Below are positions 17,591-55,849 of a stretch of 64,000 nucleotides of DNA, in pieces. Origin of the DNA: an uncultured Geobacteraceae bacterium (lineage in GTDB: Bacteria; Desulfobacterota; Desulfuromonadia; Geobacterales; Pseudopelobacteraceae); NCBI GenBank assembly GCA_903875605.1, contig CAIQWT010000007.1, positions 1 to 64,000 on the forward strand. The letters are read 5' to 3'. Positions within the stretch are counted from its first letter, which is position 1, and every line of letters starts with the position of its first letter. Position numbers and translations under genes: made by a program. The notes under the pieces are model-generated. The model saw nothing but the letters and a program-made list of their open reading frames with translations, was not told the DNA's origin and made no database searches.

Positions 17591-18523
17591 CTATGAAATA
17601 GCCGCCCACCAGGCCCCAACAACCGCAGCAGCACTTATAAGTGCAAGCAGAACATTCGCAATTGCGCCCGGACGTCCGTATTTTCCGACCAGAAACTCCG
17701 CGCCCATTCCCGATAACACGCCAACGCTAAACCCGAAAAAGTGAGCACCAAGGTCGGTGTTTTTCCCTTCTGTACCCAGTATCGTCAACAGTGCCAAACC
17801 GGCAGCAACCGGTATAAACCAGCGTCGCTGCAGATGATGTCGATAACGCACCATACTTATGGCAGCCAGAATACCGACGGCACCAAAGACAGCGGTGGAT
17901 GCTCCAACCGAGCGATGATACGGTGATTGTACCCAGGCATTGATCAGGTTGCCGCAAGTCCCTGAAACCAGCAGCAGACTCCAGGCCAGTCCCGAGCCTA
18001 GTTCACGACAAAGCAGGATGATAAAAACGCCCCCTATCGTAACATTACTGAGCAGATGTGTCAGGTCACTATGCAAAGTCAGGGCAGTGACGCATTGCCA
18101 CCATTCTCCGCCAAGAATTTTCTCAGCATGAGCAGTGCCTAGCTCTTTCAGATCGACAAGCCCCCGTCCCGGCAGTGATACGCCAATCAGGTTCAGATTA
18201 TAAAAAATTGCCAGGAGAAGCAGAATTGAAGCCGTAGGCAGGGTGTTTTCTATCAGTGGCCTTGTTGTCGGTAATGGCGGAGGCCAGTTCAGATTGGCTT
18301 CCTCGTAAAGCAGCAGCTCTCTGCGGGCACTCTCCAGATGTTGCTCCGGCACCAACAGCAGCCAGTCCGGTCCGATGGACTCGATACAGCAGGGAATAGA
18401 CCTTGAGTCCAGCACCAACGCTAACGTACGCGCCCTGCTCTTTGTCAGAAAGACGCCATTTTTCGAGTTTAGCGTTATCCAGGCGTTGCGCAACTCGTCA
18501 TGTTGCTCCACTGAAAAGTCCAT
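17591..18523 (-). CDS. Rhomboid-family intramembrane serine protease
   Basis: A membrane protease cutting transmembrane substrates. The protein has a soluble N-terminal domain (about 80 residues) followed by six or more hydrophobic segments. The catalytic serine lies in GASTAVFGAVG and the histidine in GAHFFGFSVG. Start chosen at MDFSVEQHDE; the frame extends 20 codons further up (to a TTG at 18583), but the extra part has no good ribosome site. It is divergent from the ANTAR regulator, sharing about 165 bases of upstream DNA. Confidence 0.83.
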   Translation of the reverse strand: MDFSVEQHDELRNAWITLNSKNGVFLTKSRARTLALVLDSRSIPCCIESIGPDWLLLVPEQHLESARRELLLYEEANLNWPPPLPTTRPLIENTLPTASILLLLAIFYNLNLIGVSLPGRGLVDLKELGTAHAEKILGGEWWQCVTALTLHSDLTHLLSNVTIGGVFIILLCRELGSGLAWSLLLVSGTCGNLINAWVQSPYHRSVGASTAVFGAVGILAAISMVRYRHHLQRRWFIPVAAGLALLTILGTEGKNTDLGAHFFGFSVGVLSGMGAEFLVGKYGRPGAIANVLLALISAAAVVGAWWAAIS

Positions 18524-18645
18524 GAATGTCACTATAAACACTAAAACGCAGAAATGCCATACAGGCATTAACACAAAGTTCAATAATGCTGACTTCGTGG
18601 CCGAATGCGGCCCTGCAACGAAACTTGAGCACTCTCTCCATCAAG

Positions 18646-18661
18646 TGGCACACCTCATGCT
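18646..18661 (+). promoter_or_regulatory. Sigma-54 (-24/-12) promoter of the ANTAR regulator gene
   Basis: TGGCAC-ACCTC-ATGCT, with GG and GC exactly 10 bases apart as the -24/-12 consensus demands. Predicted start near 18672, about 18 bases before the ATG. There is no hairpin or terminator between promoter and gene, unlike the four nif leaders. Confidence 0.75.
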
Positions 18662-18689
18662 AACTGATTCAATTCGGAGGTAAACAACA

Positions 18690-19253
18690 ATGACTAAATC
18701 CATACTAATTTGTGACGATGAACCGCTTATCCGAATGAGCCTGAAAAGCATGCTGTCAGATCTGGGCTTTGATGAAATACTGGAGTGCGGTGATGGCGAA
18801 AAGGCCGTAGAACTTGCATTGGCGAGTTTTCCTGATATGGCAATTCTGGATGTTTCCATGCCGGGTATGGACGGAATAACCGCAGCTGTTGAAATCAGAA
18901 AAAAGTTGAAGATCCCGATTATGCTCCTGACAAGTGCCTGCGACAGTGCGACTGTAAAACGGGCATCCGCAAGCGGTATTGCCGCTTTTTTAACCAAACC
19001 ACTCCGTCAGCAGGATCTGTTGCCGGCCATCGAAATAGCTCTGCAGCACGTTGAAGAGATTGAAAACTTGAAAGAAAAAATTGACGATCTGCGGGAACTT
19101 ATCGAGAACCGCAAAATCATTGAAAAAGCCAAAGGGGTTCTCATGGAAAAAAACTGCGTATCAGAGGCGGAAGCCTACCGCATCATGCAGAAAACAGCCA
19201 TGGACAAGCGCAAATCACTACTGCAGGTAGCTAACATTATATTGAAGGGCTAA
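18690..19253 (+). CDS. gnfR: Response regulator with ANTAR RNA-binding domain (GnfR-like antiterminator)
   Basis: A two-domain regulator of 187 residues. Receiver domain at 3-115 with acidic pair Asp9-Asp10, phosphoacceptor Asp54 (AILDVSMPG) and Lys in FLTKPL; coiled linker rich in Glu/Lys (about 117-140); ANTAR three-helix domain at about 125-185 (IEKAKGVLMEKN, then AYRIMQKTAMDKR). ANTAR proteins bind hexaloop RNA hairpins and prevent termination. In Geobacter sulfurreducens GnfR does this at nif genes after phosphorylation by GnfK. Here the gene is next to draG/nifB and is sigma-54 driven, and four nif leaders carry matching hairpins. No histidine kinase gene adjoins it. The symbol is by context. 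Confidence 0.85.
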   Translation: MTKSILICDDEPLIRMSLKSMLSDLGFDEILECGDGEKAVELALASFPDMAILDVSMPGMDGITAAVEIRKKLKIPIMLLTSACDSATVKRASASGIAAFLTKPLRQQDLLPAIEIALQHVEEIENLKEKIDDLRELIENRKIIEKAKGVLMEKNCVSEAEAYRIMQKTAMDKRKSLLQVANIILKG

Positions 19254-19266
19254 ATCCAGAGGGTTG

Positions 19267-19299
19267 AGGGGTTAGGTGATCTATTCACCCCTCACCCCT
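19267..19299. terminator. Bidirectional hairpin between gnfR-like gene and draG
   Basis: AGGGGT...AGGTG pairs with CACC...ACCCCT, with a small internal bulge, between the two convergent stop codons. No long T run; probably a shared terminator. Confidence 0.5.
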
Positions 19300-20203
19300 A
19301 AAACATCCTCCCTACAGGACTGGCAGCAACCAATCTTTCAACCATAATTTCTATCTCGGCAATCACTTTTGTATCCATCTTCTTTATCCAGCGCTTAGGA
19401 ATCGCCTCCAAGCCATAATAAGCGCCTGCCAGCATACCGCAGATGGCACCTGTCGTATCGGCATCTGCACCCTGATTCACTGTCCCTATCAGACATTCTT
19501 CAAAGTTCCTGCCCCGAAAAAACCAGTGAAACACCGTCTGCATGGTATCTACGACATAACCGGTGGCCAGACCGCGATACGGAACAAAGGCAAAGGTTGG
19601 CAACCTGGCCACCAAACCATCTACATGGCGGAGCATACGGCTTTTTTCGGCCCCGCAGAGAGCCATGTGCAGGAGCTGCCCCAGACAGAGACATGCGGCA
19701 TCTGAAACCGGATTATTATGGGTAATGTGAGCTTGCTCGATTACATATTTTTTAAGCAGTTCACCGTCAGGAAGTGAAAAAATAGCCGCCGGTAACAGGC
19801 GCATGGCTGCACCGTTACCGGCGTCCCATTCATTTGGCGGTGATTCCAACTGCCCGTGCAATAGATAGGCACGGATACCTTTACGGCAGGTATCTCCGCA
19901 ATCAACCGGTCGGGATTTAAGCCAGGCGGCAAAATTATCCGCTACCGCCTCCAGCGACCAGGTCTGGCTTTTGACAATAGCGCGAGCTATACACAGCGCC
20001 ATTTCAGTGTCATCAGTCACCTGTCCGGATTTCAACCGCAACCAACCACCACCGATAATATCCCGAAATGTACCGTATTTTGCGGCAATTTCTGATGCGG
20101 TCATAAATTCTACCGTCGCGCCGAGGGCATCACCGATCGCCATACCGATGAAGGCAGCACGGGCGCGATCGCGTATTTCTTCAAGGTTGTACTGATTGAA
20201 CAT
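19298..20203 (-). CDS. draG: ADP-ribosyl-dinitrogenase reductase hydrolase (DraG-like)
   Basis: Removes ADP-ribose from the arginine of NifH and so reactivates nitrogenase. The roughly 301-residue protein has the ADP-ribosylglycohydrolase fold with its metal-binding motifs: 'AFIGMAIGDALGATVEF' at the N-terminus, 'SGQVTDDTEMAL' (about 60) and 'NQGADADTTGAICGMLAGA' near 245. The aspartates of TDDTE and DADT hold the two metal ions. Start chosen at MFNQYN (20203; AGAAGG upstream) because the predicted -24/-12 promoter would start RNA near 20232, at the alternative ATG 20230. draT lies about 35 kb away at the other end of the nif region. Generic ADP-ribosylglycohydrolases look alike; context decides the call. 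Confidence 0.82.
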   Translation of the reverse strand: MFNQYNLEEIRDRARAAFIGMAIGDALGATVEFMTASEIAAKYGTFRDIIGGGWLRLKSGQVTDDTEMALCIARAIVKSQTWSLEAVADNFAAWLKSRPVDCGDTCRKGIRAYLLHGQLESPPNEWDAGNGAAMRLLPAAIFSLPDGELLKKYVIEQAHITHNNPVSDAACLCLGQLLHMALCGAEKSRMLRHVDGLVARLPTFAFVPYRGLATGYVVDTMQTVFHWFFRGRNFEECLIGTVNQGADADTTGAICGMLAGAYYGLEAIPKRWIKKMDTKVIAEIEIMVERLVAASPVGRMF

Positions 20204-20242
20204 AAGATACCTTCTTGCAGAATTAAACACTCGTTGCGGTCA

Positions 20243-20258
20243 TGCAATTCACAATCCA
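20243..20258 (-). promoter_or_regulatory. Candidate sigma-54 promoter for draG
   Basis: On the minus strand TGGATTGTGAATTGCA: GG and GC are 10 bases apart and the -12 half (TTGCA) is perfect, while the -24 half (TGGAT) is weaker than at the other nif promoters. Predicted start near 20232. Confidence 0.5.
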
Positions 20259-20297
20259 CATCTTGTGCCCAAATAATATGCAGATTTGTGGTGTAAA

Positions 20298-20355
20298 CCG
20301 ATAAAAGTATTTGGGTGACAATATCCTTATTACGTCACAAAAGCCCATTTATCGG
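20298..20355. repeat. Nested inverted repeats upstream of the nifB promoter
   Basis: Outer arms CCGATAAA (20298-20305) and TTTATCGG (20348-20355); inner arms GTGAC (20315-20319) and GTCAC (20334-20338). The element lies 36-93 bases upstream of the -24 box of nifB, where an enhancer-binding protein would be expected. It shares no obvious sequence with repeats upstream of the other nif units. Confidence 0.4.
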
Positions 20356-20390
20356 CGTTTGTGCGCCTCTCTGCACAATTGAAACAAGGA

Positions 20391-20406
20391 TGGCATATTC
20401 TATGCT
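20391..20406 (+). promoter_or_regulatory. Sigma-54 promoter of nifB
   Basis: TGGCAT-ATTCT-ATGCT with correct GG/GC spacing. Predicted RNA start near 20417, only about 7 bases before the ANTAR-type hairpin. Confidence 0.75.
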
Positions 20407-20423
20407 CTATCAACTTCAGCAAA

Positions 20424-20464
20424 GGCAACGACGCCTGTGGGATTTTTCCTACGGGCGTTTTTTT
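20424..20464 (+). promoter_or_regulatory. ANTAR-type hairpin overlapping an intrinsic terminator, nifB leader
   Basis: GGC-AACGAC-GCC (20424-20435) is a 3-bp hairpin with a six-base loop whose first base is A and fourth is G, as ANTAR proteins require. Its 3' half is also the 5' arm of a terminator: ACGCCTGTGGG pairs with CCTACGGGCGT (20431-20458, 11 bp with two G-U pairs), followed by seven T. The two structures exclude each other, so binding of the ANTAR protein would allow read-through into nifB. Only one hairpin fits between the RNA start and the terminator. Confidence 0.75.
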
Positions 20465-20483
20465 ATTTTTGAAGGAGCAAACT

Positions 20484-21353
20484 ATGGCAACAGCTTGTGA
20501 TATGAAGAATAAAATTCAGGGACATCCATGTTTCGGCGGCAACCACCACAAAAACGGACGAATGCATCTGGCTGTGGCGCCGAAATGCAACATCAAGTGC
20601 GGCTACTGTTCACGCAAACATGATTGCGCCAACGAGTCCCGCCCCGGTGTCACCAGTCGCCTACTGACACCTGAGGAAGCGATCATAAAGGTGCGCGAGG
20701 TCATGGCAAGCCCGATAGTCGGCCCTATCGTCAAAGTAGTCGGCATTGCCGGCCCGGGAGACCCGCTTTTCAACGAAGAGACCTTTGAAACATTTAAAAT
20801 GGTGAAAGAGGAATTTCCCCACCTGATGCTCTGCTTGAGTACCAACGGACTGCTGCTGCCTGAATCGATTGACCGCCTCTATGAACTTGGCCTGCACAGC
20901 CTGACGGTGACTATTAATGCGATAGACCCGGAAGTAGGGGCGTATATTTACCGTCATGTGGTCTATCACGGTAAGCACTACACCGGCGTTGAGGGTGCCG
21001 GAATATTGATAGCCAACCAGCTTGAAGGCCTCAAACGTGCCGGCGAACTCGGGCTGACAATCAAGGTAAATACGGTTTTAGTACCGGGTGTAAACGACGA
21101 CCAGCTGCCACTCATCGCCGCTCGGGTAAAGAAACTGGGGGCTTTTGTCATGAACATAATGCCGATCATCCCTCAGGCAGAACTGGCTCACATCGTGCCA
21201 CCAAGTGAGGAGCGAGTGACCGCGCTCCGCAAAGCTAACGAAAGCATTATCGGCCAGTTCGCCCACTGCAAACAGTGTCGCGCTGATGCCATCGGACTTA
21301 TCGGTCAGGATTTGAATATGTCTGTTGCAGAGCCCGCCAGCCCGGTATCATGA
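20484..21353 (+). CDS. nifB: NifB, FeMo-cofactor biosynthesis radical SAM protein (short form)
   Basis: Fuses two [4Fe-4S] clusters and inserts carbide and sulfur to make NifB-co, the core of FeMo-co. The 289-residue protein has HPCFGG near the N-terminus, the radical-SAM triad Cys35-x3-Cys39-x2-Cys42 (CNIKCGYC), NESRPGV, and AGPGDPL. It ends after the SAM barrel with a 'HCKQCRADAIGLIGQD' segment and lacks the C-terminal NifX-like domain of long NifB proteins. ATG 20484 has GAAGGAG eight bases upstream; the open frame further up runs through the promoter and terminator and is not coding. First gene of a six-gene unit; its stop overlaps the next start (ATGA). Confidence 0.95.
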   Translation: MATACDMKNKIQGHPCFGGNHHKNGRMHLAVAPKCNIKCGYCSRKHDCANESRPGVTSRLLTPEEAIIKVREVMASPIVGPIVKVVGIAGPGDPLFNEETFETFKMVKEEFPHLMLCLSTNGLLLPESIDRLYELGLHSLTVTINAIDPEVGAYIYRHVVYHGKHYTGVEGAGILIANQLEGLKRAGELGLTIKVNTVLVPGVNDDQLPLIAARVKKLGAFVMNIMPIIPQAELAHIVPPSEERVTALRKANESIIGQFAHCKQCRADAIGLIGQDLNMSVAEPASPVS

Positions 21354-22174
21354 TAATCGAGCCGTTCCGCACAGCTGATATCGCCCATTTTCTCGCCCTG
21401 GCGACAACGGAAAACTGGGTTGCAGAATCCTGGGAGTTCGAGTTTTTACTCTCTACTTTTGCTCAGGGATGTTTCGTTGCCCGTGAAGATAGCGGGGAAT
21501 CGATCGGCTTTGTGACCTCCATGCGTCATGAAAGAAGCGGCTGGATCGGCAACCTGATCGTAAAGAGCGAATATCGGGGAATAGGAATCGGCGACAAACT
21601 TTTTATCAGAGCCCTAGAAGCGCTGCGGTTATCCGGAGTGGAAACATTCTGGCTGACCGCTTCCAAGTCCGGTCGGTCACTCTATGAAAAGTATGGTTTC
21701 AGCGACATTGACAATATCATCCGCTGGGTTGGGAGTGGCCGCCAGCGGACTGGATATAACAGAGGAGCAGTCGGACACGAAATGGTGGCTGAATCGTCGC
21801 ATAAGCTTGATACTCAAGCCTGGGGCGATCGCCGGGAGATATTATTTTGCAAAACCGCACACCGCGGGGTGATCCTGCAGAATGAATCAGGATTTCTCGT
21901 GCTGCAGCCATGCGGTAATGCCGTGCAGTTTGGCTCTTTTTCAGCATTAAATGACGGTACAGCAGAAAACCTTTTTGATGAGGCTGCTAAAACAATCGCT
22001 TTTGGAACCAGATTTTTACTGGATGCTCCTGTTTCCAATCAAACGGCACTGCGACTCTTTAACAGAAAAAAAATGAGGATAGCCGGCAGTAATTCACTAA
22101 TGTATGCCGGCATTAAACCCGGGTTTCGCCCCGATTTAATCTTTGGCCTGGCCACCATGGGGAGCTGTGGATGA
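21350..22174 (+). CDS. GNAT-family N-acetyltransferase in the nifB operon
   Basis: A 274-residue protein with a clear GNAT domain in its N-terminal half: acetyl-CoA-binding motif 'KSEYRGIGIGDKLFIRALE' at about 73-91 and 'LYEKYGFSD' afterwards. The C-terminal half (about 150-270) looks like a second, degenerate acetyltransferase-type domain of the kind that follows GNAT in some two-domain enzymes. Substrate unknown. It is translationally coupled to nifB and followed by nifV, so a role linked to nitrogenase maturation or to an acyl-CoA step is inferred from place only. Confidence 0.75.
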   Translation: MIIEPFRTADIAHFLALATTENWVAESWEFEFLLSTFAQGCFVAREDSGESIGFVTSMRHERSGWIGNLIVKSEYRGIGIGDKLFIRALEALRLSGVETFWLTASKSGRSLYEKYGFSDIDNIIRWVGSGRQRTGYNRGAVGHEMVAESSHKLDTQAWGDRREILFCKTAHRGVILQNESGFLVLQPCGNAVQFGSFSALNDGTAENLFDEAAKTIAFGTRFLLDAPVSNQTALRLFNRKKMRIAGSNSLMYAGIKPGFRPDLIFGLATMGSCG

Positions 22175-22203
22175 AAAACAACGAATAACTGCGGGAGGTG
22201 ACC

Positions 22204-23349
22204 ATGACAATAAATCACGAAATCATAATCGACGATACCACCCTGCGCGACGGTGAACAGACCGCAGGGGTTGTCTTCTCAAAACGGGAAAAGATCGCTA
22301 TTGCCCGCATGCTCGACTCCATCGGTGTGGGTGAGATAGAGTGCGGTATTCCTGCCATGGGTGCCGAGGAACAGGCGAGTATACGAACTTTGGTTGATCT
22401 GGGATTGAACGCGCGGCTTATTACCTGGAATCGGGCCCTGGTGCCTGAAATTAAGGCAAGTATTGCCTGTGGTGTGCAGGCGGTAGATATATCTCTCTCT
22501 GTTTCCGACCAGATGATCGTGCATAAACTGCGTAAAGATCGCAACGCGGTTAAGGAACAGTTGAAGATCGCGCTCGGCTTTGCCAAGCAGCACAATCTTT
22601 ATGTTTCCGTTGGCGGTGAAGATGCCAGTAGAGCCGATATGGCCTTCCTTGTTGAATTGATGGAAATCACTCGCGCACTTGGTGGTGATCGCTTCCGTTT
22701 TTGCGATACGCTAGGGATTCTTGATCCATTTACCATGTTCGAAAAAGTGGCGTTCTTGCGTAAATCTGTCCCTGATATTGATATTGAAGTACATACCCAT
22801 AACGATCTGGGAATGGCTACCGCAAATGCCATCGCCGGTATTCGTGCCGGAGCAAAGTTTGTCAACACCACCATTAACGGTCTTGGAGAGCGTGCCGGAA
22901 ATGCCGCTTTAGAAGAGGTTGTCATGGGATTGAAGCACGCCTGTGGCGTTGAAACCGGCATCTACACCCACCGCTTTCGTGAGATGTCACTCTTTGTCGC
23001 CAAAGCATCTGACCGTCCGCTCTCCGTTTCCAAGCCGGTCGTGGGATCCAGGGTCTTTGCCCACGAGTCAGGCTTGCACGCCGACGGAGTCATCAAAGAT
23101 CCGCATAATTATGAAGGATTCGACCCGGCGGAAGTCGGTTTAACTCGCAGCATTGTGGTAGGCAAACATTCCGGTACGGGAGGTTTGATTGAACGTTATC
23201 GCAGTATGGGGATTGTCGTGAACCGGAAACAGGCCGATCCGTTGCTGGAACGGACACGAGCCATGTCATGCCGGCGCAAACGGGAGCTGACAAACCGGGA
23301 GCTAATGGCCATATATCTTGGCGAAGAAGCGCTGCCTAAGGCAGCCTGA
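22204..23349 (+). CDS. nifV: Homocitrate synthase NifV
   Basis: Condenses acetyl-CoA and 2-oxoglutarate to homocitrate, the organic ligand of FeMo-co. The 381-residue protein is a DRE-TIM metallolyase: DTTLRDGEQTAGVVF at about 11-25 (DxTLRDGEQ motif) and the metal-binding 'EVHTHNDLGMATANA' near 200. Its position behind nifB separates it from leucine-pathway isopropylmalate synthase. ATG 22204 is chosen for its GGGAGG five bases upstream; GTG 22198 is part of that site. Confidence 0.92.
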   Translation: MTINHEIIIDDTTLRDGEQTAGVVFSKREKIAIARMLDSIGVGEIECGIPAMGAEEQASIRTLVDLGLNARLITWNRALVPEIKASIACGVQAVDISLSVSDQMIVHKLRKDRNAVKEQLKIALGFAKQHNLYVSVGGEDASRADMAFLVELMEITRALGGDRFRFCDTLGILDPFTMFEKVAFLRKSVPDIDIEVHTHNDLGMATANAIAGIRAGAKFVNTTINGLGERAGNAALEEVVMGLKHACGVETGIYTHRFREMSLFVAKASDRPLSVSKPVVGSRVFAHESGLHADGVIKDPHNYEGFDPAEVGLTRSIVVGKHSGTGGLIERYRSMGIVVNRKQADPLLERTRAMSCRRKRELTNRELMAIYLGEEALPKAA

Positions 23350-23364
23350 TAAAAGGAGCGTATC

Positions 23365-23601
23365 ATGTGTGAAGCAGGAACTAATTTTGTACCAATTGCT
23401 GAAGCGGCTCTGCTTCTGGAAACAACCGAAATGCGGGTGTTGATGATGCTCAAGAAAAATGAGCTGCAGGGGAAAACGGTGGATGAAGCCTGGTACGTAG
23501 ACAAGTCATCGCTAAATATCTGCGACAAGCCGAAAGCCGCTGATATCGTTAAAGCCGGTGGCTGCGGTGGTGGATGTGGCAGTGGATGCGGCGGGCATTG
23601 A
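23365..23601 (+). CDS. Small protein with HTH-like N-terminus and Cys/Gly-rich tail, nifB operon
   Basis: A 78-residue protein. Residues 8-52 (EAALLLETTEMRVLMMLK ... AWYVDKSSL) resemble an excisionase/MerR-type winged helix, where a strand 'WYVDKSSL' follows the recognition helix. The tail is GGCGGGCGSGCGGH, three closely spaced cysteines and a terminal histidine, which could hold a metal or Fe-S cluster; other cysteines are at 2 and 53. It has AAAAGGAG before its ATG and sits 15 bases after nifV. I do not recognise a named family. A DNA-binding metal sensor or a cluster carrier are both possible. Confidence 0.65.
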   Translation: MCEAGTNFVPIAEAALLLETTEMRVLMMLKKNELQGKTVDEAWYVDKSSLNICDKPKAADIVKAGGCGGGCGSGCGGH

Positions 23602-23624
23602 TCCCCATAAAGGAGTGTGATCCC

Positions 23625-23912
23625 GTGATTATCGTCAAAGCATCCGATTTCAAGTTTAAATATCCACGGGACATTGCAAACCGTAATGAACCCAAATTTA
23701 GTGGCTTGCCGGATCCTGCCCCCTTCAACCGCGATGACCTCTACGATATTCTGCCTATGATGTCAGCTGTTATGGACGAATTGGGGAGCGTTGATGGCGA
23801 AGTACTGAATCTTCTGGAAGACCTCCTGAACCAGATGCCGCGTTTTGTCACCAGTCGTGGTGAAGTATTTGATTATCTGTACGGATCGGCCAGAGAATGC
23901 TTGAGAGGGTAG
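23625..23912 (+). CDS. Hypothetical protein, 95 residues, nifB operon
   Basis: Starts at GTG 23625 (AAGGAG ten bases upstream). The sequence begins MIIVKASDFKFKYPRDIANRNEPKFSG and ends in a helical segment with acidic residues (LLEDLLNQMPRFVTSRGEVFDYLYG). Its 3' end overlaps the macro-domain gene by 16 bases, so the two are translated together. No motif known to me. The constant association with nif genes in this operon suggests a supporting role; nothing more can be said. Confidence 0.6.
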   Translation: MIIVKASDFKFKYPRDIANRNEPKFSGLPDPAPFNRDDLYDILPMMSAVMDELGSVDGEVLNLLEDLLNQMPRFVTSRGEVFDYLYGSARECLRG

Positions 23913-24322
23913 GAAACATTTGGGATTACAGCAACCAGGGCGTTATTGTTATTACTACCAACGGCTCGCTGACCCGCGACGGACGCGCTATATTCGGGCG
24001 TGGTGTAGCGCGGCAGGCTGTCGCCAGATTTCACGGGCTTGCTGAAAAATTAGGCATACTTCTGGCGGAGAGGGGTAACCATGTCTATGATCTCGGCAAT
24101 GGTATCGTCACCTTTCCAGTAGAAGAGACCCCCTGGTCACTTCCGGATTTACGCATTATCCGTCGCTCGGCTCAGGAACTACGGGCACTGGTGGACCATA
24201 GAAAATGGGGTATAATTTTAGTTCCCCGACCGGGCTGCGGTGGCGGAGGTCTTGCATGGAAGGATGTGCAGCCGCTTCTTGAACCGTGGCTTGATGATCG
24301 ATTTATAGTTATCAGCCTTTGA
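23897..24322 (+). CDS. Macro-domain-like ADP-ribose-binding protein, end of nifB operon
   Basis: A 141-residue protein resembling the Appr-1''-p/phage-type macro-domain family. The match is in two places: 'TTNGSLTRDGRAIFGRGVARQA' (about 20-41; family pattern N-G-x-x-x-x-G-x-A-x-x-G-R-G-V-A) and 'LVPRPGCGGGGLAWKDVQPLLE' (about 106-127; family pattern P-x-G-C-G-x-G-G-x-x-W). These form the ADP-ribose phosphate-binding loops. It lies in a unit controlled by the nif leader and near draG. Binding or hydrolysis of ADP-ribose or its derivatives in the Dra cycle is an inference. Confidence 0.7.
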   Translation: MLERVGNIWDYSNQGVIVITTNGSLTRDGRAIFGRGVARQAVARFHGLAEKLGILLAERGNHVYDLGNGIVTFPVEETPWSLPDLRIIRRSAQELRALVDHRKWGIILVPRPGCGGGGLAWKDVQPLLEPWLDDRFIVISL

Positions 24323-24395
24323 CTGGAACAAAATAATACCACTGTTTTAAAATAATATGTATAGTCAACCAAAACCATGTACAAAGGAGTGCGCC

Positions 24396-25841
24396 ATGTA
24401 CAATGCCGGTATTCAGGGAAGTAAACCCCGCACCCCCTACCACGAGTTCTACGCCGATGATTTCACCCCCCGCGACCATTACCGACTGCTGTGGGACCAC
24501 ATAAAGGCCACCGGCAACAGTGCTCTGGAGGCTAAGGCTCACGAATCCCAACTGGCACTTCAGGCTGAAGGGGTTACCTTCACCGTATATGGTGAAAGCG
24601 AAGAGGGGATCGAGCGCATCTGGCCCTTCGATCTGATTCCGCGCATCATAACCGCTCCTGAATGGGTCAAGATTGAATCCGGCTTGAAGCAGCGGGTGCG
24701 TGCCCTGAATCTGTTTCTTGGGGATCTTTACGGAGAACAACGCATTATCAAGGACGGAGTTATTCCTCCGGAGCTGATTTACCAAGGGCGCGATTTCCGG
24801 CGCGAGATAGTCGGTATCGTGCCGCCACGCGGCATCTACACTCATGTCAGCGGCATTGACATAATCCGCGATGAAAAGGGTGAGTTCCTGATTCTGGAGG
24901 ACAACCTGCGCACCCCGTCAGGTGTTTCCTACATGATCGAAAACCGGGTCATAGAGCGCCGCATCCTTCCGGAGTTTTTCAATAAATACCGCGTGCGCCG
25001 CGTCGAACACTATCCTTCCCTGCTGCTGGCCGCCCTGCGAGCGCTCTCACCGCGTGGCAAAGACAATGCAGAAATTGTATTGCTCACACCCGGCATCTAC
25101 AACTCCGCCTATTTCGAACATACTTTTCTTGCCAAGGAGATGGGTGTGGAACTGGCTGAAGGGCGCGACATGGTTGTTGTCAATGACATTGTCTACCTCA
25201 AAACCACCACCGGTCTGCAGCGCATCGACGTGATATATCGCCGCATCGACGACGACTTCCTCGACCCTCTCGTATTCCGTTCCGATTCATCCCTTGGCGT
25301 AGCCGGAGTCATCAACGCCTGGCGTGCCGGGAATGTCGCCATTGTCAATGCTCCGGGGAGCGGCATCGCCGATGACAAAGCGGTTTATCCGTACGTACCT
25401 GATATCATCCGTTATTATCTCGGTCAGGAGCCGATTCTCAACAATGTCCCGACGTATCAGATGACCAATGTCCAGGATCGTGAGTACGTGTTTGACAACA
25501 TGGAACGTATGGTGATCAAAGCGGTCAGCGAATCCGGGGGATACGGCATGTTGATGGGGCCATCGTCTACACCCGCCCTGCGCAAAGAGTTTGTCGATCT
25601 GGTGACGGAAAACCCCCGTAATTACATTGCCCAGCCGGTGGTCTATCTGTCGCGTCATGTCTGCTACATGGATGGCGAACTGGAAGCGCGACACCTGGAT
25701 CTGCGCCCCTATGTCATTTACGGCGAGGACATCGAAGTCGTGCCGGGTGGCTTGACACGGGTGGCCCTGCGCAAAGGATCGCTGGTAGTTAACTCGTCAC
25801 AGGGTGGTGGAAGCAAGGACACCTGGGTACTGGCCGAGTAG
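24396..25841 (+). CDS. Circularly permuted ATP-grasp protein (type 2)
   Basis: A 481-residue member of the circularly permuted ATP-grasp family (DUF404/DUF407). Visible blocks: the N-terminal 'YHEFYADDFTPRDHYRLLW', the permuted nucleotide-binding part 'FLILEDNLRTPSGVSYMIENR' (about 163-183) and the later 'MVIKAVSESGGYGMLMGP' glycine-rich loop. ATP-grasp enzymes join a carboxylate to an amine or thiol via an acyl phosphate. Comparative work links this family with alpha-E and transglutaminase genes in predicted peptide-synthesis or peptide-tagging operons. ATG 24396 has AAAGGAG; an upstream ATG is not preferred. A terminator-like hairpin follows. Confidence 0.85.
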   Translation: MYNAGIQGSKPRTPYHEFYADDFTPRDHYRLLWDHIKATGNSALEAKAHESQLALQAEGVTFTVYGESEEGIERIWPFDLIPRIITAPEWVKIESGLKQRVRALNLFLGDLYGEQRIIKDGVIPPELIYQGRDFRREIVGIVPPRGIYTHVSGIDIIRDEKGEFLILEDNLRTPSGVSYMIENRVIERRILPEFFNKYRVRRVEHYPSLLLAALRALSPRGKDNAEIVLLTPGIYNSAYFEHTFLAKEMGVELAEGRDMVVVNDIVYLKTTTGLQRIDVIYRRIDDDFLDPLVFRSDSSLGVAGVINAWRAGNVAIVNAPGSGIADDKAVYPYVPDIIRYYLGQEPILNNVPTYQMTNVQDREYVFDNMERMVIKAVSESGGYGMLMGPSSTPALRKEFVDLVTENPRNYIAQPVVYLSRHVCYMDGELEARHLDLRPYVIYGEDIEVVPGGLTRVALRKGSLVVNSSQGGGSKDTWVLAE

Positions 25842-25843
25842 TG

Positions 25844-25866
25844 GCGCATTGCATGCGCGCTTTTTT
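25844..25866 (+). terminator. Intrinsic terminator or attenuator after the ATP-grasp gene
   Basis: GCGCAT-TGC-ATGCGC hairpin followed by GC and six T. The alpha-E gene follows after about 90 bases on the same strand, so this may reduce rather than abolish downstream expression. Confidence 0.55.
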
Positions 25867-25953
25867 ACATCGGAGAACTTTTATATTTGCCGATAAAACC
25901 TGAGCCGGAAGCACTCCACAGATGAGCATCTACGAAAAAAAAGGAATGAAACC

Positions 25954-26895
25954 ATGCTAAGCCGCATTGCTGATTCGATGTACTGGATGGCCCGTTACCT
26001 TGAGCGTGCCGGTGAAACAGCCCGCTTGATGGAGATCAATCTGCTGTATATGGTCGAGGCTGAAGAGGATATGAGTGAGAATGACAAGTGGCAGCCGATC
26101 CTGCAGATAAACTCGTCTGAACCGCTTTATGACGAGCAGTTCGGCGGCGGCAACATAAGTACCCCGCGCGTACTGCAATTCATCAGCGCCGGCCGTAACA
26201 ACCCCAGCTCCATCCGCACCTGCCTGCGGCTATTTCGGGAAAATGCCAGGGTGGCCCGTGACAGGATTTCCAAGGAGATGTGGGAAGCGGTCAACGAAGT
26301 CTGGATGAAATTTGATGAACGGCTGCGCGGACCACTCTCTGCTGAGAGGGCCGGCGCCCTTTTTGTCGAACTGCGTAATCAGGTGGCTCGCTTTAACGGT
26401 TTGGTTGCCTCAACCATGATGCGCGGGGAGGCGTACTCCTTCTACCAGCTGGGTGGGTGCTTTGAACGTGCAGATATGACCTCGCGGACTCTTGACGTCA
26501 AGTATCACATCATTCTGCCTGACATCTCTATGGTTGGTTCAGCTCTCGACTATTACCAGTGGGCTGCCCTGCTCAAGTCGCTCTCAGGCTTTGAAGCTTT
26601 CCGGCGCACTTACCACTCCGGTTTCATGGCGGCAGATGTAGCTGAATTTGTTGTGCTCAACCGTGCTTTTCCGCGCTCTATCGCATTTTCAATTCAGCAC
26701 ATGGGGGGCGCGCTTCAGACTATTGGCCTTGATAACAAAGAGATGACACGGACAGCTTTTGCAGCTCTCTCAGCATTGCTTTGCAGCACTTCACAACAAC
26801 AGATTTTTGACGACGGACTGCATGAATATCTTGAAAGTCTACTTGAGAAACTATCATCGTTTCATGCTGCTCTGGCCGAAGAGTTTTTCCAATAG
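25954..26895 (+). CDS. Alpha-E domain protein (DUF403)
   Basis: A 313-residue, almost wholly helical protein. It starts MLSRIADSMYWMARYLERAGETARLMEINL, the hallmark N-terminus of alpha-E proteins, and includes 'ARVARDRISKEMWEAVNEVW' in the middle. In many bacteria an alpha-E gene lies directly behind a circularly permuted ATP-grasp gene and before a transglutaminase, exactly as here. It is thought to act with the ATP-grasp enzyme; no catalytic residues are known. AAAAAAGGAA precedes the ATG. Confidence 0.87.
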   Translation: MLSRIADSMYWMARYLERAGETARLMEINLLYMVEAEEDMSENDKWQPILQINSSEPLYDEQFGGGNISTPRVLQFISAGRNNPSSIRTCLRLFRENARVARDRISKEMWEAVNEVWMKFDERLRGPLSAERAGALFVELRNQVARFNGLVASTMMRGEAYSFYQLGGCFERADMTSRTLDVKYHIILPDISMVGSALDYYQWAALLKSLSGFEAFRRTYHSGFMAADVAEFVVLNRAFPRSIAFSIQHMGGALQTIGLDNKEMTRTAFAALSALLCSTSQQQIFDDGLHEYLESLLEKLSSFHAALAEEFFQ

Positions 26896-35361: not shown

Positions 35362-36378
<1,017 letters not shown>

Positions 36379-36390
36379 GTAAAAAATACC

Positions 36391-36419
36391 ATCTCACCAC
36401 AGAACTTTTGTGGTGAGAT
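36391..36419 (+). terminator. Stem-loop between nifH and nifD
   Basis: Perfect 10-bp stem ATCTCACCAC / GTGGTGAGAT with a nine-base loop, then TTTTAAAGGAG. It overlaps neither gene. It probably stabilises the nifH part of the message or terminates partly, giving more NifH than NifD. Confidence 0.65.
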
Positions 36420-36434
36420 TTTAAAGGAGTTTAT

Positions 36435-37880
36435 ATGTCAGAAAAAATTCGAAAAATTGACGGTATAACTAAAGAATCCACCCAGGCTATGATTGACGAT
36501 GCCCTCTCTGTGTATCCAGAGAAGGCCAGAAAAAAACGCGCGCCACACCTGGCACCCAATGACCCGTCATCCGGCTGCGCCAGCGTCAAATCCAACAAGA
36601 AAACTGTTCCGGGTGTCATGAGTGCTCGCGGCTGCGCCTATGCAGGTGCCAAAGGCGTTGTTTGGGGGCCGATCCGCGATATGGTTCATGTTTCCCACGG
36701 TCCGGTCGGCTGCGGCTGGTACTCCTGGGGCACACGCCGTAACCTGATGAGCGGTATCAACGGCGTCACTCAGTTCGGTATGCAGTTCACGTCTGATTTT
36801 CAGGAAAAGGACATCGTCTACGGTGGCGATAAGAAACTGAAAACGCTGCTTCATGAGGCTCATGAACTTTTCCCCCTTGCCAAAGGAATTTCGGTTCTTT
36901 CTGAATGTCCGGTAGGACTGATCGGCGATGATATCAACTCTGTGACAAAGAGTGTTTCCAAAGAGTTGGAAATCCCGATAATCCCATGCAACTGCGAAGG
37001 ATTCCGGGGTGTTTCACAGTCACTTGGTCACCATATTTCCAATGACTCGATTCGTGATTACATTATTGAGACCCGCGAGTTCGCAGAGCCTTCGACACCA
37101 TATGATATAGCTTTGATCGGTGATTATAATATCGGCGGCGACGTCTGGTCAGCCAAGGCTCTGCTTGAAGAGATCGGCTTGAACGTAAAATCTGTCTGGA
37201 CAGGCGATGGCGAATTAGAAAAAATTGCCGCGACCCATACTGTCAAACTGAATCTGATCCACTGCTATCGTTCGATGAACTATATGTGCAAAGTGATGGA
37301 AGAAAAATACGGTATCCCCTGGTTGGAGTTCAACTTTTTTGGCCCGACCAAGATCAGAGAGAGCCTGCGGGCCATCGCCGAGCGTTTCGACGACACAATC
37401 AAGGAAAAGGTCGAACTGGCCATCGCCAAATACGAGCCGATCATGCAGGCTATTATCGATGAATACAAACCACGCCTTGACGGCAAGAAAGTAATGCTTC
37501 TGGTCGGAGGACTTCGCCCACGCCACACCATCGGCGCTTATGAGGATCTGGGAATGGACTGTGTTGGCTCCGGTTACGAATTTGCCCACACCGATGACTA
37601 TGACCGTACCGCCCCGGAAATGCCGGAAGCAACCGTTGTTTATGACGACCCCTCCGAGTACGAATTTGAAAAGTTTGCTCATGCACTGAAACCTGATCTG
37701 ATCGGATCCGGCATCAAGGAAAAATATGTATTCCAAAAAATGGGTATTCCGTTTCGCCAGATGCACAGTTGGGATTATTCCGGACCTTATCACGGCTATC
37801 AGGGCTTTGAAATCTTTGCCCGCGACGTTGATATGGCGGTCAACAGCCCGACCTGGAAATTGGTAAAGGCACCATTTTAA
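36435..37880 (+). CDS. nifD: Nitrogenase molybdenum-iron protein alpha chain NifD
   Basis: Carries FeMo-co, the site of dinitrogen reduction. The 481-residue chain has the P-cluster cysteines in [18 protein letters not shown] and [11 protein letters not shown], the cofactor cysteine in [10 protein letters not shown] and the cofactor histidine in [17 protein letters not shown]. There is no vanadium/iron-only signature and no anf/vnfG-type small subunit gene. AAAGGAG precedes the ATG. Confidence 0.97.
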
Positions 37881-37890
37881 TCTGTCTAAA

Positions 37891-37973
37891 CACTAAGGTA
37901 CAGAGAGACGAAAAGAATCTACCCTTAACCATATTGGGACTAAACTTAGTTTTTCTACCTCTGTTCCTCAGTG
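37891..37973 (+). repeat. Imperfect long stem in the nifD-nifK spacer
   Basis: CACT, AGG and ACAGAG (37891-37905) pair in order with CTCTGT, CCT and AGTG (37959-37973), with small bulges. This is in the 156-base spacer between nifD and nifK. Possible RNA processing or stabilising element; no T run. Confidence 0.4.
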
Positions 37974-38036
37974 TCTCACTGTTTAAATATAATCGGTTGT
38001 GCGACAGATTGGTCGCCCGCCCAAAAGGAGTACAAA

Positions 38037-39506
38037 ATGGCAAACTTATTAGGACTTGAAGTCAAGAAAGTTACTGAAACCCCACCAGAAGAGGTGGAGC
38101 GAGTTAAAAACTGGATCGACAGTGAAGATTATAAAGAGAAGAATTTTGCCCGCCAGGCGTTGGTTATCAACCCTGCTCATGCCTGCCAGCCGTTGGGAGC
38201 ACAGCTTTGTGCACACGGCTTTGAAGGCACACTGCCGTTTGTGCACGGATCACAGGGATGCGCTTCCTATTATCGCTCGACCCTTAACCGCCATTTCCGA
38301 GAACCTGCTCCGGCCGTATCGGACTCCATGACTGAGGACAGTGCCGTATTCGGAGGACAGAACAATCTCCATGAAGGTCTCGAGAATGCTGTTGCTCTCT
38401 ACAAACCGAAAATGATCGCCGTGTTCACCTCATGCATGCCGGAAGTTATAGGTGATGACCTGACTGCCTTCATCAAGAATGCCCGTCAGAAAGGGCATAT
38501 TCCCAAGGAACTGCCGGTTCCATACGCCAACACACCCAGCTTTAACGGTACTCATATTCACGGCTATGATTCCATGCTGGTTTCTATTCTGCAGAATCTG
38601 ACCGAGGGTAAACAGATCGAAGGGCGCTGCACAGGCAAACTTAACCTGATTCCAGGCTGCGACTTCAACATCGGTGACTATCGCGAATACAGACGTATAC
38701 TCAAGGAGTTCGGCATACCCTATACGATTCTGGCAGATATTGGCGATACCTTTGATTCACCATGTGACGGCACCTATAACATCTACGCCGGCGGCACTAA
38801 ACTAGAAGATGCCGCTGACTCGATCAACGGCAAGGCTACCATCGCAATCGGGCCATACGCCACTCCAAAAACCTTTGGCTGGATCAAGGACAATTATTCC
38901 GGCAAGCACGTTTCCATGGCCATGCCGATGGGTATCGAAAAGACGGATGCCCTGATCATGAAAATCGCTGAACTGTTTGGCAAGGAAGTGCCGGCATCTC
39001 TGAAAAATGAGCGTGGCCGTGCGGTTGATGCCATGACTGATTCACAGCAGTATATGCATGGTAAGAAGTTCGCTGTTTATGGCGACCCGGATTACCTGAC
39101 CGGGTACATATCATTCCTGTTGGAGATGGGTGCCCGCCCGCATCACATTCTCTGCAGCCGTGGCAGCAAAAAGGTGGAAAAAGAGATTCAGGCGCTGCTA
39201 GACGGCTCTATGTACGGCGCAGGGTGCAAGATTTATATGAATAAGGATCTTTGGCATCTACGCAGCCTGGTGGTAACCGATCCAGTCGATGCCATCATCG
39301 GCGATACTCACGGAAAGTTTGCCGCCAGAGACGCAAAGATACCGCTGTTTCGCTTCGGCTTCCCGATTTTTGACCGCGTCAACAAACACCGCTATCCGAT
39401 CATAGGGTATCAGGGTGTGGTCAATATGGTAACGGAAATTTGTAACAAGTTTATCGACATTAAGGACGAAACTTGCGAAGACCGTTTCTTCGAGATGATG
39501 CGCTAA
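38037..39506 (+). CDS. nifK: Nitrogenase molybdenum-iron protein beta chain NifK
   Basis: Partner of NifD; shares the P-cluster. The 489-residue chain has cysteines in NPAHACQPLGAQL, HGSQGCASYYRS and TSCMPEVIGDDL, and the serine/threonine-rich region after them. ATG 38037 has AAAAGGAG seven bases upstream; the frame continues further up but that part overlaps the spacer. The 156-base gap after nifD is unusually long for nifDK. The protein is of the shorter type that lacks the N-terminal extension of the Azotobacter beta chain. Confidence 0.96.
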   Translation: MANLLGLEVKKVTETPPEEVERVKNWIDSEDYKEKNFARQALVINPAHACQPLGAQLCAHGFEGTLPFVHGSQGCASYYRSTLNRHFREPAPAVSDSMTEDSAVFGGQNNLHEGLENAVALYKPKMIAVFTSCMPEVIGDDLTAFIKNARQKGHIPKELPVPYANTPSFNGTHIHGYDSMLVSILQNLTEGKQIEGRCTGKLNLIPGCDFNIGDYREYRRILKEFGIPYTILADIGDTFDSPCDGTYNIYAGGTKLEDAADSINGKATIAIGPYATPKTFGWIKDNYSGKHVSMAMPMGIEKTDALIMKIAELFGKEVPASLKNERGRAVDAMTDSQQYMHGKKFAVYGDPDYLTGYISFLLEMGARPHHILCSRGSKKVEKEIQALLDGSMYGAGCKIYMNKDLWHLRSLVVTDPVDAIIGDTHGKFAARDAKIPLFRFGFPIFDRVNKHRYPIIGYQGVVNMVTEICNKFIDIKDETCEDRFFEMMR

Positions 39507-40965: not shown

Positions 40966-41194
40966 GGTTATATCTCCTAATATCAAGTAGTTACCTGGAA
41001 ACAGTATATTAGATGCTACGAATAACGAACAACGTTATTTGCACTTTATTTGCAATAATATCCAATAGTTACACTATTTAAGTTCGTGTTAATATTTGTG
41101 ATTAGACGTGCCATAACATGACAGTCCAGCAAAAAAGTGGATTGATATGTATGATTCATAGTGTTATAGTTTCCGTGTAGCAATGGAGGGGGAT

Positions 41195-41578
41195 GTGCGG
41201 ATATTCAAAACAAAGTGGTTTGTCCGGTATGTACGACAAGAGCACATTAGCGATCATGGTTTGCGTGATGCGATTGAACGTGCCGAGCGTGGTCTTATCG
41301 ATGCTGACTTAGGCGGAGGAGTCATCAAGCAGCGAGTGGCGCGGACGGGACAGGGGCGCTCCGGTGGTTACCGGATGTTGATTGCTTACCACTCCGGCAA
41401 TAGAGCTGTTTTCATGTACGGTATTGCTAAAAATGATCGGGGTAATATTGACGAAGACGAGTTGGCAACACTGCGAGAGATCGGGGCGGCATGGCTGGCG
41501 GCACAAGCGGAAGAGCTAGACCACGCCATTACAGAAGGTATTTTGGAGGAAATGAACGATGACAACAAAAGCAAATAA
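41195..41578 (+). CDS. RelE/HigB-type toxin of a type II toxin-antitoxin pair
   Basis: A 127-residue RelE-superfamily toxin, predicted ribosome-dependent mRNA endonuclease. The core has 'FVRYVRQEHISDHGLRDAIERA', 'KQRVARTGQGRSGGYRMLIAY' and 'FMYGIAKNDRGNID', matching the HigB-2/YgjM-partner type. GTG 41195 follows GGAGGGG by four bases; ATG 41183, in frame, is an alternative. It overlaps the antitoxin gene by 20 bases, toxin first, as in higBA operons. Confidence 0.83.
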   Translation: MRIFKTKWFVRYVRQEHISDHGLRDAIERAERGLIDADLGGGVIKQRVARTGQGRSGGYRMLIAYHSGNRAVFMYGIAKNDRGNIDEDELATLREIGAAWLAAQAEELDHAITEGILEEMNDDNKSK

Positions 41579-41894
41579 AAATAGCCCGTTAACACAGGCA
41601 CTGCTTGAAACTGCCAACGATATGCACAGTGTCGGAATTCTGGGGAACGATGCTTATAAAAAAATCACTATGCGGCACTTAGGAACGAAAAAACCGGAGA
41701 TTGAGCCGTTGTCTGCTGAAGAAATCCGTAAGATTCGGGAACAAACTCACATGAGCCAATCAGTATTTGCTCATTGCCTCAATGTGACGGTAGGGTACAT
41801 ATCACAATTGGAGCGCGGCGCAAAACGCCCAACGGGTGCAGCGCTTATGTTGTTAAATGTCATTCACCGCAAGGGGATTGAAGCGATTCTGTAA
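41559..41894 (+). CDS. HTH-type antitoxin (HigA/NadS-like)
   Basis: A 111-residue XRE-family protein; the helix-turn-helix is in the C-terminal half (IRKIREQTHMSQSVFAHCLNVTVGYISQLERGAKRP, about 62-97). It would neutralise the toxin encoded just upstream and repress the operon. The N-terminal part (1-55) is the likely toxin-binding region. A perfect 8-bp inverted repeat CAGACTCG/CGAGTCTG follows it at 41939-41968. Confidence 0.85.
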   Translation: MTTKANKNSPLTQALLETANDMHSVGILGNDAYKKITMRHLGTKKPEIEPLSAEEIRKIREQTHMSQSVFAHCLNVTVGYISQLERGAKRPTGAALMLLNVIHRKGIEAIL

Positions 41895-55045: not shown

Positions 55046-55849
55046 ATGCAAAACGGTTCCTTCAACAACTGCAACCTGCCGCCTTGGGTCATCGCCTCTC
55101 GCCATTTCAATGACAATCCCCATACACTAGAAATCCAGGGAGTCAAGGAGGGCAATCGATTCTTTTTTGACAAGCTTGCCACACTCGATCATCAGGAAGA
55201 ACGGGCCGTCACCTTTAATGATTATATGTCGGTTAAGTTTCAACTGCACCAATGGCAGAACCAGACTGAAACCGCCCGAAGAAGCTTGAAGAACAGTTAT
55301 CTGCGCTACCTGCGCGGCTGGATGATGGATTCAAATTCCATCGAAGGTGCCGTTCTCAAGCGATGGGTGGAAAGCCGCATGGGAATCACCCCCACTTTTC
55401 ACAATTCCCGTATTGACAGTATTCACAGCCAGGCATATTTCGACTATTCTGTTGCTGTTATGAAAGGGAGCGCGCGCACAAACGCCATTCAATCGCAGCT
55501 CGATATTCTCTACGTATACTGTCAGTACGAACTTATCAAAAAGTACGGGCACACCGTCACAATTCCCTTATTTCGCGGCACCTACGACGCAAGTGAACAT
55601 GAGCTTATCGAGCAGATCGACAAGCGCACTCAGATTGTCCGCCTGAATAACCTGGCATCATTCACATCTGATGAGGAGCGTGCCTGGGAATTCGGCTCAA
55701 CCGTTTGGGAGGTTCAAGTACCGCTCTGCAAGATTTTTTTTTACAACGATCTGCTGCCGGGCAGCATTATGAAGGGGGAGGGGGAATATCTTGTCATCGG
55801 GGGAGAATATCGGATCAGACGGGTGATGTGTACCGTTTCCAGGAAATAA
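55046..55849 (+). CDS. draT: NAD+-dinitrogenase reductase ADP-ribosyltransferase (DraT)
   Basis: Transfers ADP-ribose from NAD+ to the arginine of NifH and switches nitrogenase off when ammonium or low energy is sensed. The 267-residue protein has the DraT features 'NLPPWVIASRHFNDNP' near the N-terminus, 'FMxVKFQLHQW', 'SYLRYLRGWMMDSNSIEGAVLKRWVESRMGI' and 'LFRGTYD' (R-G NAD site), and 'PGSIMKGEGEYLVIGGEYRIRRV' with the catalytic E-x-E-like segment near the C-terminus. It ends the nifX unit, so its expression follows nitrogen fixation. draG lies 35 kb away under its own putative sigma-54 promoter. Confidence 0.88.
   Translation: MQNGSFNNCNLPPWVIASRHFNDNPHTLEIQGVKEGNRFFFDKLATLDHQEERAVTFNDYMSVKFQLHQWQNQTETARRSLKNSYLRYLRGWMMDSNSIEGAVLKRWVESRMGITPTFHNSRIDSIHSQAYFDYSVAVMKGSARTNAIQSQLDILYVYCQYELIKKYGHTVTIPLFRGTYDASEHELIEQIDKRTQIVRLNNLASFTSDEERAWEFGSTVWEVQVPLCKIFFYNDLLPGSIMKGEGEYLVIGGEYRIRRVMCTVSRK

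Follow-up and report, generated by a model that had tools for sequence, protein, structure and literature searches.

A small winged-helix protein with a cysteine tail, encoded among nitrogenase genes, looks more like a metal-bearing switch adaptor than a classical DNA-binding regulator

The 64,000-nucleotide stretch of DNA analyzed here, hereafter called the window, is part of a 3.58-Mb draft genome whose relatives belong to the Geobacteraceae/Desulfuromonadales, for example Pelotalea, Trichlorobacter and Geomonas. Its forward strand carries, in this order, nifB, a GNAT protein gene, nifV, a small gene that we name HTHCys, ORF95 and the macrodomain-like ORF141 (table 1). HTHCys starts with ATG 15 bp after the nifV stop codon, with AAAGGAG upstream, and its 78-residue translation ends in GGCGGGCGSGCGGH; the spacing to ORF95 is 23 bp. 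The gene for DraG lies some 3 kb upstream of HTHCys on the minus strand, while nifH and DraT are found at 35509 and 55046, respectively. HTHCys is a real, conserved gene and more than a chance reading frame, because a search with the single protein retrieved relatives in 53 of 58 genomes and in all nine genera (9/9).

Table 1. Features of the window discussed in the text, with the evidence for each
Feature	Position	Strand	Evidence
HTHCys, small winged-helix protein with Cys tail, 78 aa	23365..23601	+	Translation; relatives in 53/58 and 116/146 genomes
HTHCys winged-helix core (predicted), residues 8-50	23386..23514	+	AlphaFold2; Foldseek and VIA-align matches to Xis and BldC
HTHCys Cys/Gly tail, residues 66-78	23560..23598	+	Sequence; conserved ligand pattern
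HTHCys putative tail ligands C67, C71, C75, H78	23563-23565, 23575-23577, 23587-23589, 23596-23598	+	
NifV, homocitrate synthase	22198..23349	+	TIGR02660, 523.5 bits, over cut-off
NifB	20361..21353	+	TIGR01290, 331.2 bits vs cut-off 343.65 (slightly under), E 8.9e-99
DraG, ADP-ribosyl-dinitrogenase reductase hydrolase	19298..20230	-	PF03747 E 1e-63; TIGR02662 449.8 bits, over cut-off
DraT, dinitrogenase reductase ADP-ribosyltransferase	55046..55849	+	PF07357 E 2.5e-111
nifH, then nifD and nifK	35509..39506	+	nifH over TIGR01287 cut-off; nifD and nifK by size and position alone
ORF95, 95-aa protein, most frequent partner gene of HTHCys	23625..23912	+	In 114/146 genomes
ORF141, macrodomain-like protein	23897..24322	+	NCBIfam DarG E 3.4e-7, under cut-off; PHROG 335 E 9e-14
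GNAT acetyltransferase-like protein between NifB and NifV	21350..22174	+	Pfam GNAT families over cut-off
Response regulator with ANTAR domain	18690..19253	+	Pfam Response_reg and ANTAR
Terminator-like hairpin and T run, leader of nifB (ahead of its likelier start)	20430..20467	+	13-pair stem

The genes surrounding HTHCys are of interest in themselves. The ORF95 protein matches no family in Pfam or NCBIfam, and its profile finds no relative among solved structures; its model is confident and all-helical and resembles no known fold clearly, the top matches reaching E 1.1 in Foldseek and Z 4.0 in VIA-align. For the relative of ORF141 encoded at locus L150, the match to macrodomain structures has an E of 5e-5. 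Sharing a cluster with DraG, such a protein might bind or hydrolyze ADP-ribose and could be, after DraT and DraG, a third protein that deals with it. Many of the loci examined retain the GNAT-like gene, placed either next to nifB or, as in the window, between nifB and nifV. The likelier start of nifB is the ATG at 20484, which is preceded by AAGGAG, and the leader before it (20290-20470) folds with a z-score of -4.6, its hairpin lying 1.2 kb past the gene of the ANTAR response regulator. Antitermination control is known in Geobacter from GnfR, and the combination of leader hairpin and ANTAR gene suggests antitermination control of the nifB operon. No RpoN-type site was found upstream of HTHCys in nine loci, and a search of positions 18000-26000 against Rfam found no RNA family.

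The original prediction had read residues 8-52 of HTHCys as an excisionase-like winged helix followed by a metal-binding tail, and the structural part of this reading is borne out by modelling. AlphaFold2, run with 52 sequences, places a strand-helix-helix-strand-strand-helix succession in residues 8-50, with pLDDT mostly at least 90 in this region (ten-residue means of 89-95 from residue 11 to residue 50), followed by a disordered tail; no dimerisation helix is present within the 78 residues. Foldseek gave no match at E 0.001, its best matches being Pukovnik Xis (4j2n, E 0.055, probability 1.00), CbpM (3ucs, E 0.099, probability 0.99) and BldC (6ama, E 0.17, probability 1.00). VIA-align likewise placed BldC (Z 6.8) and Xis (Z 6.6) on top, both under the Z of 8 deemed safe. 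The window protein itself exceeds no family threshold in Pfam, NCBIfam or PHROGs, having no Pfam match at E 1 or below and MamR as its best NCBIfam match (0.13), so that the family is one for which neither database has a model that recognizes this protein. Because of this, the helix-turn-helix assignment rests on the model and on the relatives, among which 10 of 22 match HTH_17 weakly (best 1.5e-4) and 15 of 22 match the excisionase family TIGR01764, also weakly (best 6.1e-5). Sequence searches of solved structures with the HTHCys protein and its profile returned nothing, a single phmmer match at E 4.5 being attributable to chance. Taken together, the fold is confidently predicted as a small winged helix with BldC and phage Xis as its nearest neighbours. 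The partner integrase expected beside a true excisionase is not seen in the window, where the Pfam-scanned neighbouring proteins between 18.7 and 25.8 kb include no recombinase family.

The surface with which such a fold would contact DNA was then compared, against the family profile, between 115 distinct HTHCys relatives (identical sequences collapsed, and one of 116 dropped as excisionase-like with fewer than three tail cysteines) and 19 excisionase-family controls of the same class, the remainder of 30 loci after filtering on alignment to the HTHCys profile. Positions 26, 27, 38 and 44, which we take to be DNA contacts in the excisionase and MerR families, are occupied in the controls by Tyr26 (17/19), Arg or Lys27 (15/19), Arg or Lys38 (19/19) and Arg or Lys44 (16/19). 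The HTHCys family instead has Leu26 in 110 and Met27 in 107 of the 115 sequences, a mixture of Glu, Met, Leu and Gln at position 38, and mostly Tyr, Phe, Leu or His at wing position 44; its core carries a mean net charge of -1.6 (sd 1.6), against +1.8 (sd 1.2) for the controls. To judge from these sequences, the typical excisionase-type DNA surface is lost in HTHCys. Some DNA binding may persist, because 105 of the 115 relatives retain Lys30 and position 47 stays basic.

These data bear directly on the proposal that HTHCys is a DNA-binding sensor, in which the winged helix would occupy the promoter of a nif or dra gene, its binding being tuned by a Cys tail that carries a metal or cluster. We regard this as rather unlikely: the nearest folds belong to DNA-binding proteins, the relatives weakly match HTH_17 and excisionase profiles, two basic residues are retained and the gene lies inside nif operons, but the contact positions of both recognition helix and wing are replaced, the core is acidic and the 78 residues include no dimerisation helix. 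The original prediction of a sensor of Fe-S or cofactor status acting on DNA is not supported in the form in which it was put, since the contact residues are replaced family-wide and the core is acidic.

The distribution of HTHCys was followed with a 22-row profile in 146 genomes drawn from one class, which we take to be the Desulfuromonadia. HTHCys is present in 116 of them, ORF95 in 114, and nifH over the cut-off in 117. HTHCys and nifH occur together in 112 genomes and are both missing from 25, with HTHCys alone in four and nifH alone in five (Fisher p 3e-19, kinship among genomes being ignored, and the family counts taking in many close relatives); the expected tie to nitrogenase is hence visible in the genomes. 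DraG is a slightly better partner, being found together with HTHCys in 115 genomes and absent with it from 26, while HTHCys stands alone in one and DraG in four, as counted for over-cut-off genomes alone (119 of the 121 with a DraG match). The steadiest partners of HTHCys are ORF95, DraG and nifH. Since seven genera (g1, g14, g190, g197, g203, g205 and g208) mix genomes having both HTHCys and nifH with genomes having neither, the two are missing together more than once. Among the four HTHCys-only genomes, G181 and G047 match nifH in part, where the contig ends or the sequence is gapped, while G328 and G405 keep HTHCys, ORF95 and DraG with no nifH over the cut-off. The locus of G328 (L292) also carries nifB, nifV and modABC. 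Conversely, HTHCys is absent from the draT/draG stretch of G302, G335 and G382, of which the first has nifH in that same stretch and the other two have it from the class-wide nifH search; HTHCys is not indispensable, because these three genomes keep draT, draG and nifH without it.

Beyond the class, a phylum-wide sample gave matches to the HTHCys profile in 20 of 247 genomes, those outside the class being weak and mostly confined to the HTH part; the aligned ones resemble ordinary excisionase-type proteins and were not accepted as family members. ORF95 has one weak match beyond the class (G096, 1.1e-9).

Gene order across the relatives extends the same association. In 97 of the 113 genomes having both, ORF95 follows HTHCys at its 3' side on the same strand, separated from it by 3-495 bp. 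The placement of HTHCys after nifV, in the company of NifB as originally proposed, is true of the window, its family and a few others, and is one of several arrangements, the others involving draT, draG, ORF95, the macrodomain gene and nifHDK. In 42 of 115 genomes the neighbour of HTHCys on its own strand is DraG, which immediately precedes it in 34 and follows it within 1.5 kb in eight; these eight have the order HTHCys-(ORF95)-draG, with a divergent nifB in most such loci examined. DraG lies on another contig in 26 of the 115 genomes and far from HTHCys in 20. Of the 34 genomes with DraG immediately ahead, 27 (from the 44 chosen for this test) have the order draT-draG-HTHCys, DraT lying on that strand 0.9-1.9 kb upstream, with ORF95 usually next and nifHDK often thereafter. 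Loci examined in full read draG-HTHCys-ORF95-(macrodomain)-nifH-nifD, and an ANTAR gene frequently precedes the series, as in L289 (ANTAR-draT-draG-HTHCys-ORF95). In the Geomonas loci examined, the HTHCys/ORF95 pair has no adjoining nif gene from the reference set. At L150 (1483-2643, minus strand) DraG and HTHCys are fused in a single reading frame of 386 residues, which keeps an internal AAGGAG and ATG, so that separate translation is possible. This neighbourhood of draT, draG, ORF95, macrodomain and nifHDK genes points to control of nitrogenase activity and not to cofactor status. Two genomes have second, diverged copies of HTHCys (L034 3653-5250 and L032 4795-5031), the former adjoining apparent tyrosine-recombinase fragments.

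The tail of the window protein has the three cysteines and one histidine noted originally, and their conservation extends throughout the family, at least four Cys or His residues being present within the last 22 positions in 111 of the 115 distinct relatives. The two outcomes that the original prediction named as refuting it, namely unconserved tail cysteines and a fold unrelated to helix-turn-helix proteins, were both looked for and neither was found. The commonest spacing is C-x3-C-x3-C-x2-H (32 sequences), and C-x3-C-xn-C-x1/2-C is found elsewhere; the spacers are elastic while the ligands remain constant, and the fourth site alternates between Cys and His. Both cysteine codons are in use at each of the three tail cysteines (43 sequences). 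Such a pattern would be the trace expected of a metal or cluster site. A precursor peptide consisting of leader and Cys core was also considered and set aside, since the tail ligands are class-wide and no accompanying maturation enzyme was seen.

A tail of this kind could belong to a metal or cluster carrier, which would hand over iron or an Fe-S unit to NifB or NifH, with the winged helix as its docking handle. Four conserved ligands on a flexible tail would suit this role, as would the gene's position, which is beside nifV and nifB among the window's own family and ahead of nifH elsewhere; yet nifH persists without HTHCys in G302, G335 and G382, G328 and G405 retain HTHCys without nifH over the cut-off, and co-inheritance is slightly better with DraG than with nifH, all of which makes a carrier improbable. 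A thiol switch working without metal, in which the cysteines would form reversible disulfides or adducts reporting oxidation, is very unlikely, for the elastic spacing and disordered tail would allow it but the Cys/His alternation at the fourth position is the habit of metal ligands rather than thiols, and the hosts are mainly anaerobes.

The explanation that we tentatively favour is that HTHCys is a metal- or cluster-bearing protein adaptor of the DraT/DraG nitrogenase switch. In this adaptor, an accessory part of the on/off switch, the excisionase-like winged helix would have given up its DNA contacts and would most likely dock on DraG, ORF95 or NifH, while the flexible C-terminal tail would offer four thiol or imidazole ligands to a metal ion (Fe or Zn) or Fe-S cluster, so that docking might answer to the iron or redox state. 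We infer the metal binding, the docking partner and the direction of the effect. The adaptor is supported by the co-inheritance and co-location of HTHCys with draT, draG and nifH, by the loss of the DNA-contact residues, by the conserved tail ligands, by the joint DraG-HTHCys frame of L150 and by the precedent of CbpM. Against it count the position of DraG on the opposite strand in the window, where HTHCys follows nifV, the genomes in which DraG is distant or on another contig, the three that keep draT, draG and nifH without HTHCys, the retained Lys30 and basic residue at 47, and the restriction of the DraG-HTHCys frame to one genome. The original prediction named the right parts, and the function moves from transcriptional control by cofactor status towards a switch of nitrogenase activity, because the steadiest partners are ORF95, DraG and nifH and because the HTH surface is atypical for DNA. 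A more specific version, to which we give little credence, would have HTHCys and ORF95 supply the DraT/DraG switch of these bacteria with its missing sensor arm: a labile cluster in the tail would read iron or redox state, the DNA-blind winged helix would signal to DraG, and energy or redox stress would switch nitrogenase off.

Among known systems, the excisionase and HTH_17 proteins such as BldC and phage Xis are like HTHCys in predicted fold and size, while differing from it in the DNA-contact residues, which are replaced in HTHCys, in the acidic core and in the Cys tail. FeoC also combines a small winged helix with a Cys cluster, and one of 22 relatives matches the FeoC profile PF09012 (E 0.066); in HTHCys, by contrast, the cysteines sit in the C-terminal tail, and no feoAB was found among the Pfam-scanned neighbouring proteins of the window. 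A parallel in the loss of DNA contacts is CbpM, the regulator of the co-chaperone CbpA, which is reported to have a MerR-like fold binding a protein, its DNA-contact Tyr and Arg being changed to Ile and Trp (PMC4063869). CbpM dimerises via a long coiled coil, whereas HTHCys ends in a Cys tail and lies in a different gene context. With respect to the DraT/DraG ADP-ribosylation switch, HTHCys is co-inherited and in many genomes stands in operon-like order with its genes, while being neither of the two enzymes. For Rhodospirillum rubrum, redox status or membrane potential has been proposed to act on this switch through an unnamed partner, and the abstract of that account names no part resembling HTHCys (PMC6067124). 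Our search of the literature on nif, DraG, macrodomain and Geobacter, with subscription papers mostly outside its reach, found no description of HTHCys, and the gene is unnamed in the consulted parts of PMC10746287 and PMC2725144.

HTHCys is a directly testable candidate for conveying energy or redox signals to DraT and DraG in Geobacter-type bacteria, being small, nearly always co-inherited, accompanied by the same genes and provided with a probable metal site. If true, it would stand beside CbpM as a transcription-factor fold that has come to serve as a protein adaptor. Downstream of nifHDK, at 41183-41894, the window also carries a pair resembling a RelE-like toxin (PF06296) and an HTH_3 antitoxin.
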